From contig JAUICM010000007.1 in NCBI GenBank assembly GCA_030427885.1, positions 1 to 64,000 on the forward strand: DNA of 64,000 nucleotides, given 5' to 3'. The stretch comes from Rhodothermia bacterium. Its GTDB lineage: Bacteria; Bacteroidota; Rhodothermia; Balneolales; Balneolaceae. A program made the position numbers and the translations under genes. Shown here piece by piece: positions 29,281-31,463 of the stretch (position 1 is the stretch's first letter; each line of letters opens with the position of its first letter). The notes beneath the pieces are model-generated. The model was not told the DNA's origin, searched no databases, and saw nothing but the letters and a program-made list of their open reading frames with translations.

Positions 29281-30993
29281 TCAAACCGCCAGTGCCTTAT
29301 TCGCAATAGCCAGTCCTTTCACAAAAGCCTGAATGATGGCTTCGATGGTATCCGGTGAGGCTCCTTTGGATGTGAAGATATGTTCTTCCTTTTCCAGAGT
29401 GAGGGTGGCAATGACCAATGATTCTGTATCAGGGGAGAGGATCTCCACTTCGTGCTTCACTACTTCAACAGGAATGAATTCATCGGTCTCCGCTTTTATT
29501 GCGGTGAGTACAGCATCCAGTGGGCCAACCCCCTGATCCAGCGAAATGACTTCTTCTCCGTTCGGTAATCTCAGTTTAACGGCAGCACTCACGAGTCCGT
29601 GCATGCGCATGGTGAGTTTGTAATCGAGCACTTCAACCGGGTGTTCCAGGTTGGTGTCTTCGTTGTACACCAGCGACTTAAGTGCTTTGATCTCTTCTTC
29701 TTTAAGTGTCTTTCCTTTTTTATTGATACCGTTCACATACTGATCATAAAGCCGGGTATGTTCTTCATCCATCGCCACATTACCGAGCAGCATCTCCCGC
29801 GATTGTCCCCAGCTCATACGCTGGATATCAGGAAACCCCGATTCTATATATTGCTGAATGCGTTCCAGCTTTGGGGAAAGAACAGGGGAGGAGAGGGAAT
29901 ACTTCGCCACGATGTGGGAGCTCTTCAGTCCTGTTCCGGTGAGTACAAACAGACATTTCTTTCCTTTGAACTGATCGAGGTTATTCTTGAAAGCAACCAG
30001 CGGAATGGCACAGGCGGGTTCAGTGAAGAGTCCTTCCTGAGTGGTCATTTCTTTCATTGACTCCAGGAGTTCATTTTCAGTAGCGGTGTAGGCCAGGCCT
30101 TCCGTTTCCTGGATGCCTTCCAGCACTTTGTAGAAATCGAATGGATCACCAACAGCTACGGCATCAGCCATGGTATTCACGTGATCGGCTATGATCTTTT
30201 CTTTTTTAAAGATGCCTTCCACAACCGGCGAACTCTGTTCAGGTTGTACAGCCACGAAAGCAGGGATCTTGTCAATAAGCCCGGCTGCCTTGAGTTCTTT
30301 AAATCCTTTGAAAATGGCTGCGAAATTGGTTCCTGCTCCAACCGGCACAAATATATAATCGTAATCAACCGGACCTTGCTCATACAGTTCATAAGAGAAC
30401 GACTTCTGTCCTTCCTGACGAAATACATAATCGCCTGCCAGGTAATAATTACCTGACTTTGCAAACTCCCGGCATAATAATTCACAGGTCTTGAAATCAC
30501 CTTTGATCTTAATGATGGTTGCATCATAGATCGTGGACTGAGCTAGTTTAACTTCCGGAGTTTTCTCTGGTACAAATACAAAACACGGGATCTTGAAGTA
30601 GCAGGCATAAGCAGCCACGGAAGCCGCCATGTTTCCGGTTGAGGCAAGGCATATCGCATCGGCGCCAAGTTCCAGGGCTTTGAGCACTTCGATATAACTT
30701 CCGCGATCTTTAAAGCATCCCGTTGGATTTTCATATTCAAGCTTGGCGTACACCTCAGCACCGTAATTCTCAGAGATCCGGGTCAGCTTCCGGAGAGCGG
30801 TGTAGCTTGTCTTCAGAGGATCCGGCTGGATATCCTTTAAAGGATATTGAATTTCCTGCCTCGGCTCCTTGTAGTCAACGGTAAGTACATTTCCACACTT
30901 GGTGCAGTACGTACTGGTTTCTCTTTCATCATTGATGGTATTGCAGGAAATACAGCGCAGGGTATATCCGGAATTGGTGCTTCTCATGAACAA
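29281..30993 (-). CDS. thrC: threonine synthase fused to a LeuA-type allosteric domain
   Basis: A 570-residue protein. Residues 14-33 form a zinc ribbon (CISC, CTKC). Residues about 55-370 are a PLP-dependent threonine synthase (type II fold): Lys95 in NPTGCFKDRGSY, the STGNMAASVAAYA phosphate-side loop (118-130), VPVGAGTN (216-223) and LTGTGLK (351-357). It converts O-phosphohomoserine to threonine. Residues about 455-570 match the C-terminal regulatory domain of 2-isopropylmalate/citramalate synthases: AAVKLRLPNGEEV, then the hallmark QGVGPLDAVLTAI (487-499), and GASPDTIEAIIQAFVKGLAIANKA at the end. A linker (375-450) also resembles the LeuA linker. The fusion suggests feedback by a branched-chain amino acid. 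It is monocistronic here, far from leuA and hom. Confidence 0.85.
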   Translation of the reverse strand: MFMRSTNSGYTLRCISCNTINDERETSTYCTKCGNVLTVDYKEPRQEIQYPLKDIQPDPLKTSYTALRKLTRISENYGAEVYAKLEYENPTGCFKDRGSYIEVLKALELGADAICLASTGNMAASVAAYACYFKIPCFVFVPEKTPEVKLAQSTIYDATIIKIKGDFKTCELLCREFAKSGNYYLAGDYVFRQEGQKSFSYELYEQGPVDYDYIFVPVGAGTNFAAIFKGFKELKAAGLIDKIPAFVAVQPEQSSPVVEGIFKKEKIIADHVNTMADAVAVGDPFDFYKVLEGIQETEGLAYTATENELLESMKEMTTQEGLFTEPACAIPLVAFKNNLDQFKGKKCLFVLTGTGLKSSHIVAKYSLSSPVLSPKLERIQQYIESGFPDIQRMSWGQSREMLLGNVAMDEEHTRLYDQYVNGINKKGKTLKEEEIKALKSLVYNEDTNLEHPVEVLDYKLTMRMHGLVSAAVKLRLPNGEEVISLDQGVGPLDAVLTAIKAETDEFIPVEVVKHEVEILSPDTESLVIATLTLEKEEHIFTSKGASPDTIEAIIQAFVKGLAIANKALAV

Positions 30994-31217: not shown

Positions 31218-31463
31218 TCACATCGGCAAAAAGATGATCTCTTCGAAATCCATGTCCAGCTCTTCGAGGACGGGGCCGGCGATCTCCACGATCTCCTCTT
31301 CAGAATAGTCTTCTAAACCCTCCAGTTTCACATAGAGGGTATCGTTGTGTTCATCCACATGGTACTCAGCTTCGGTAGATTCAAAACTGTCTTTAAGGGT
31401 CTGAATGAGAATATTCAGATCTTCTTCGTAGGATTGGTAATCAAATTCTTCTGATGAACTCAT
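31218..31463 (-). CDS. small acidic hypothetical protein
   Basis: An 81-residue, strongly acidic protein (many Glu and Asp) that I do not recognise. It has a helix-strand-strand-helix-like pattern: LNILIQTLKDSFESTEAEYHVDEHNDTLYVKLEGLEDYSEEEIVEIAGPVLEELDMDFEEIIFLPM. No signal peptide or membrane segment. It is divergent from anmK, with 45 bases between the two starts, so they may share a control region. Could be a small regulator or binding protein; no evidence of function. Confidence 0.75.
   Translation of the reverse strand: MSSSEEFDYQSYEEDLNILIQTLKDSFESTEAEYHVDEHNDTLYVKLEGLEDYSEEEIVEIAGPVLEELDMDFEEIIFLPM

Follow-up and report, generated by a model that had tools for sequence, protein, structure and literature searches.

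A LeuA-type regulatory domain joined to a threonine-synthase-family PLP enzyme is conserved in Balneolales

The 64,000-nucleotide stretch analyzed here (the window) carries on its minus strand an intact open reading frame, 29281..30993, whose product combines domains of two different enzyme families. Its longest reading gives 570 codons from a TTG at 30993, but an ATG at 30987 (M3) is probably the likelier start because the majority of relatives align from residue 3. The protein begins with a zinc-ribbon-like segment (residues 14-36; 30886..30954) in which C14, C30, and C33 are invariant and position 17 is C, N, or H; Pfam zinc-ribbon matches to it are weak and under the cut-off. A PLP fold-type-II (PALP) catalytic domain follows (residues 64-353; 29935..30804; PF00291, 1.8e-64), with the PLP lysine K95 in an FKDRG motif and a loop, AGDYVFRQE (residues 186-194; 30412..30438), that replaces the NSxNPxR motif of classic threonine synthases. 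A linker (residues ~404-449; 29647..29784), which is similar in relatives and which we read as subdomain II of isopropylmalate synthase (IPMS), leads into a LeuA-type allosteric/dimerization domain (residues 450-570; 29284..29646).

The sequence-only reading had proposed a LeuA-type regulatory domain on a threonine-synthase-family PLP enzyme, and profile searches bear this out. Pfam places LeuA_dimer (PF08502) at residues 433-561 (5e-16), its 59.2 bits lying above the cut-off of 24.9, and finds no match to the HMGL-like TIM barrel (PF00682) or to an ACT domain in the fused protein. Matches to the NCBIfam LeuA profiles begin at residue 403/404, thus covering the linker, and extend to 561-563; the borrowed part therefore seems to take in the IPMS linker together with the 450-570 domain, probably starting at about residue 404. 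The architecture of zinc ribbon, PLP fold-type-II domain, and LeuA allosteric domain is confirmed as real, far beyond chance. The AlphaFold model of the full-length protein reaches a middling pLDDT of 67.5, with the linker below 50, and we therefore left the relative placement of the domains out of the analysis.

The surroundings of the gene offer some metabolic context. In 28 of 36 loci, the gene immediately upstream, in the same orientation, is a small one, here of 81 amino acids (31218..31463, minus strand), whose product has no Pfam match above cut-off. In the window the two genes lie 224 nt apart, with a terminator-like stem between them; two of the deepest relatives have gaps of 5 and 12 nt. 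The convergent 3' neighbor of the fusion is dapD-dapA-dapB-lysC in Balneola and Gracilimonas, and either thrC-thrB-thrA-dapD-dapA-dapB or dapD-dapA-dapB alone in Fodinibius-type genomes, the dap, lys, and thrA names being assigned from sequence. This neighborhood, which is missing around the window's fusion and in the deepest relatives, points to aspartate-family metabolism; the arrangement is convergent, not an operon.

Modeled alone, the regulatory domain adopts a (beta-beta-beta-alpha)x2 topology with a mean pLDDT of 85.7. Its best PDB matches are all regulatory domains of LeuA or of Leptospira citramalate synthase (LiCMS), at Z 15.0-13.0, and the next unrelated row stands at 8.8. The top match is the Ile-bound LiCMS regulatory domain 3f6h_A (Z 15.0, rmsd 2.5, 116 residues); M. 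tuberculosis LeuA, its Leu-bound form included, follows at Z 13.0-13.2 (3fig_B, 13.2). By sequence profile, 3f6g/3f6h is the sole PDB match (E 0.0015). Thus the module shares with that of LeuA and CimA (PF08502; 3f6g/3f6h, 3fig, 1sr9) a linker followed by the doubled fold, the GxGPxDA and S-x-D-x-x-E motifs, and Z scores of 13-15. It differs in that the LeuA/CimA module sits on an HMGL TIM barrel while that of the fusion sits on a PLP fold-type-II enzyme, and in its pocket residues. Signals on whether the domain came from LeuA or CimA disagree, the NCBIfam LeuA profiles matching while the fold and the PDB profile favor LiCMS; the tree puts the domain on a long branch that sides with neither origin.

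Within the domain, GVGP (G488-P491), T503, H514, L526, and S546 and D548 of S-x-D are invariant in all 44 fused sequences, among which domain identity falls as low as 43%, and T523 and V527 are each present in 43. This conservation suggests that the pocket has been kept. In LiCMS, we take the Ile pocket to be formed by Y430, L451, Y454, I458, T464, and V468, a numbering that fits the chain range 390-515. The corresponding positions of the fusion are L492 (I, M, or L among relatives), V511, H514, I518, T523, and V527, so that both aromatic positions are replaced, Y454 by the invariant His and Y430 by Ile, Met, or Leu. The effector pocket looks kept but retuned. A small aliphatic amino acid is the likeliest candidate for the ligand, and it may or may not be Ile or Leu specifically. 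A search for a riboswitch that might hint at the effector returned none in the 64-kb window; among eight relatives, it turned up nothing but whalefall-1 RNAs close to a single gene; two of these, one per strand, lie directly upstream of that relative's fused gene (L033:7756-7897).

The catalytic part is most similar in structure to threonine synthases (Z 27-29). Like the enzymes of Thermus, Bacillus, and M. tuberculosis (TIGR00260), it has the fold (Z about 25-27), the FKDRG lysine, and the ASTGN, EGQK, and TGxGLK motifs, and its zinc-ribbon N-terminus is common to some threonine-synthase-like groups. K95 is conserved in 44 of 44 fused sequences, and the PLP-ring motif TG-x-G-x-K (here TGTGLK) is of the threonine synthase type, not the dehydratase type. 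The NS and R of NSxNPxR bind the substrate phosphate in Thermus threonine synthase. In the fusion, the A-G-D of the AGDYVFR-like loop is found in all 44 sequences and the Arg is retained (R192); in every one of them STGNT has also become STGNM (M122), and PVGNAGN has become PVGxGTN. The sequence-only reading had called this part a complete threonine synthase: it does have the PLP lysine and the cofactor motifs, but it lacks the usual substrate-phosphate loop. Other annotated threonine synthases, haloarchaeal and PRK08197, likewise vary in the NS loop, and therefore the altered loop does not exclude O-phosphohomoserine (OPH) as substrate. The TIGR00260 profile is passed by a margin of 3.7 bits (170.8 against a cut-off of 167.1); several orthologues fall below the cut-off (158.9-166.7), while others reach 206-208, the basal G286 among them at 206. 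The protein thus belongs to the threonine synthase family by fold, its functional membership is doubtful, and "threonine synthase" is a weak label for it.

The fusion is a conserved new pairing of two already known parts. The 44 sequences all come from Balneolales, with full-length orthologues at 55-87% identity in Balneolaceae and its sister families, including Balneola, Gracilimonas, and Fodinibius/Aliifodinibius. When the regulatory-module profile was run over 394 sampled genomes of the phylum, scores of the fused type (265-323 bits) came up in Balneolales only; none of the other listed matches exceeds 53 bits, their frames are mostly as long as LeuA/CimA, and no fusion was found outside the order. 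A scan of genome contigs gave 24 fused loci, again all in Balneolales, and the plasmid records listed show only threonine-synthase-like matches, at no more than 35% identity and 66% query cover. A tree of the PALP part unites the fused proteins in a single clade with 100/100 support, whose stem is long (2.0 changes per column), and keeps them apart from the dehydratases and from threonine synthases of the classic, zinc-ribbon, haloarchaeal, and PRK08197 kinds. The initial view that no characterized enzyme has such an architecture agrees with our literature searches of open papers, which found no description of it, though a domain database may still list it. To our knowledge, LeuA_dimer is otherwise confined to the isopropylmalate/citramalate synthase family.

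The genome harboring the window (4.15 Mb, 98.7% complete) encodes a canonical ThrC of the E. coli type (436-aa frame, 2.5e-88) in a separate thrA-thrB-thrC locus. ThrB adjoins it there, as does a homoserine dehydrogenase whose 834-aa frame matches a bifunctional aspartokinase-homoserine dehydrogenase in size. The genome also has a separate ACT-bearing IlvA, and the fusion is its only LeuA_dimer match. Its own isopropylmalate synthase (G000:C9:38677-39840; L116:13678-14841, minus strand) is a 387-aa LeuA that stops in the linker, without a regulatory domain, and thus the only LeuA_dimer of the genome sits on a PLP enzyme. The LeuA homologue of G286 (L123; 495 aa, 64% identical) carries the regulatory domain.

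A four-marker search over 33 Balneolaceae genomes, 26 of them with the fusion, allowed us to count pathway genes by hand from the tables. ThrB and canonical ThrC accompany the fusion in 21 of the 26; both are missing from the other five (G042, G061, G069, G081, and G258, 98-100% complete), all of which retain homoserine dehydrogenase. The alternative homoserine kinase TIGR00938 was found in none of 12 genomes searched, these five included. G042 and G069 carry another threonine-synthase-like paralogue of the PRK08197 kind. IlvC is missing from six fusion-bearing genomes (G042, G069, G081, G147, G155, and G258), and Fodinibius-type genomes combine the fusion with CimA and no full-length IlvA match. 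In close orthologue pairs, ThrB/ThrC-less genomes included, dN is 0.03-0.055 (0.12-0.17 in the pairs with G042 and G069, which are more distant), while synonymous sites are at or near saturation, regulatory part included. Therefore, the fused gene is still under purifying selection in genomes that lack ThrB and ThrC.

These patterns bear on the proposal, made from the sequence, that a Leu/Ile-sensing domain on ThrC provides a feedback point. A sensor-type domain is present, but the evidence falls short of such feedback and in part speaks against it, the loop and two pocket positions being replaced; with a separate thrABC, and the fusion kept without ThrB and ThrC or without IlvC, simple Ile/Leu feedback on a housekeeping ThrC is unsupported. 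The fusion co-occurs with the IlvA route, with the CimA route, and with no complete branched-chain pathway; therefore Ile need not be the ligand, and we rejected sensing tied to the Ile route as the sole explanation.

We favor, with about even confidence, the reading that the fusion is a threonine synthase paralogue, putatively gated by an amino acid, at an aspartate-family branch, whose lysC and dapBAD genes it often neighbors; it would act on an altered substrate as a gated side branch and have an altered effector pocket. A threonine synthase paralogue would have gained the linker and LeuA_dimer domain as a C-terminal allosteric module from an isopropylmalate or citramalate synthase, probably once and early in Balneolales. 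The module would dimerize and bind a small amino acid at the domain interface, and by analogy with LeuA and CimA, binding would alter the activity of the PLP domain. The substrate would probably be an aspartate-family amino acid or derivative, such as threonine, homoserine, or a homoserine ester, undergoing elimination or replacement of the threonine synthase or threonine deaminase type. Such an enzyme would not be the OPH-dependent housekeeping one and so would act as a side branch. A further reading, which we consider possible but short of even, is that the fusion is a separate PLP family outside threonine and branched-chain synthesis. It would belong to the lysine/diaminopimelate or methionine branch, with a substrate derived from homoserine or aspartate, and its LeuA-type sensor would have been retuned to a different amino acid, as the invariant His514 in the pocket might indicate.

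Alternatively, the fusion may be a true second threonine synthase, an isozyme that uses OPH and is feedback-inhibited by Ile or Leu through its LeuA-type domain, so that Ile-bound threonine would be under its own control. The structural matches, the TIGR00260 score just reaching its cut-off, the retained R192 and TGxGLK, the resemblance of the regulatory domain to Ile- and Leu-bound ones, and a genome with an ACT-bearing IlvA and only this LeuA_dimer are all consistent with this idea. We nevertheless consider it unlikely, given the NS loop replaced in 44 of 44 sequences and the retention of the fusion without homoserine kinase, without IlvC, and in Fodinibius-type genomes with CimA and no full-length IlvA match. 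Somewhat more doubtful still is an amino-acid-gated threonine/serine deaminase-like enzyme producing 2-oxobutyrate, a LeuA-domain analogue of ACT-domain IlvA. Threonine synthase and threonine deaminase chemistries overlap, ThrB would not be needed, and the ThrC enzymes of Microcystis, Thermus, and Bacillus are able to deaminate threonine, an activity that Ile inhibits in Microcystis (PMC12172450); yet the same genome has a separate IlvA, the PLP-ring motif is not of the dehydratase type, and genomes without IlvC retain the fusion. The least probable alternative is that the C-terminal domain is a mere dimerization or structural module that has lost ligand binding. Pfam names the domain "allosteric (dimerisation)" and two aromatic LiCMS pocket positions are replaced, but the invariant GVGP, T503, H514, L526, S546, and D548 and the nearly invariant T523 and V527 suggest a kept pocket.

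The amino-acid-gated paralogue that we favor resembles two known systems in part. Like IlvA, it places a regulatory domain after a fold-type-II PLP domain; that of IlvA is an ACT domain that senses Ile and Val, whereas that of the fusion is LeuA_dimer, and the PLP-ring motif of the fusion is threonine-synthase-like. Microcystis ThrC, a precedent for the favored reading, is a divergent threonine synthase paralogue beside ThrC2 and IlvA, with both threonine synthase and Ile-inhibited threonine deaminase activity (PMC12172450). It shares with the fusion an N-terminal extension and the company of another ThrC and IlvA, but what is described at its C-terminus is just an incomplete regulatory segment (E419-L433), with no LeuA domain (PMC12172450). 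From threonine synthases at large, the fusion is set apart by AGDYVFR, STGNM, PVGxGTN, its own long-stem clade, and its ThrB-independent occurrence.

A natural, conserved graft onto an unrelated catalytic fold, apparently linker included, would show that the LeuA_dimer module is portable, and would serve as a natural template for the engineering of amino-acid-gated enzymes. There is a warning here for gene naming as well: a profile passed by so few bits can yield "threonine synthase" for proteins whose carriers mostly have a canonical ThrC elsewhere.

Two further observations concern related enzymes in Balneolales. Ketol-acid reductoisomerase falls into two score classes (~145 and ~220 bits) that seem to split genomes by IlvA or CimA route. 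The PRK08197 threonine-synthase-like paralogue found in some genomes (L147:6918-8123, L148:6739-7926, L149:7114-8283) is a possible cysteate synthase, since the CapA2 entry 9k3c figures among the fold matches.
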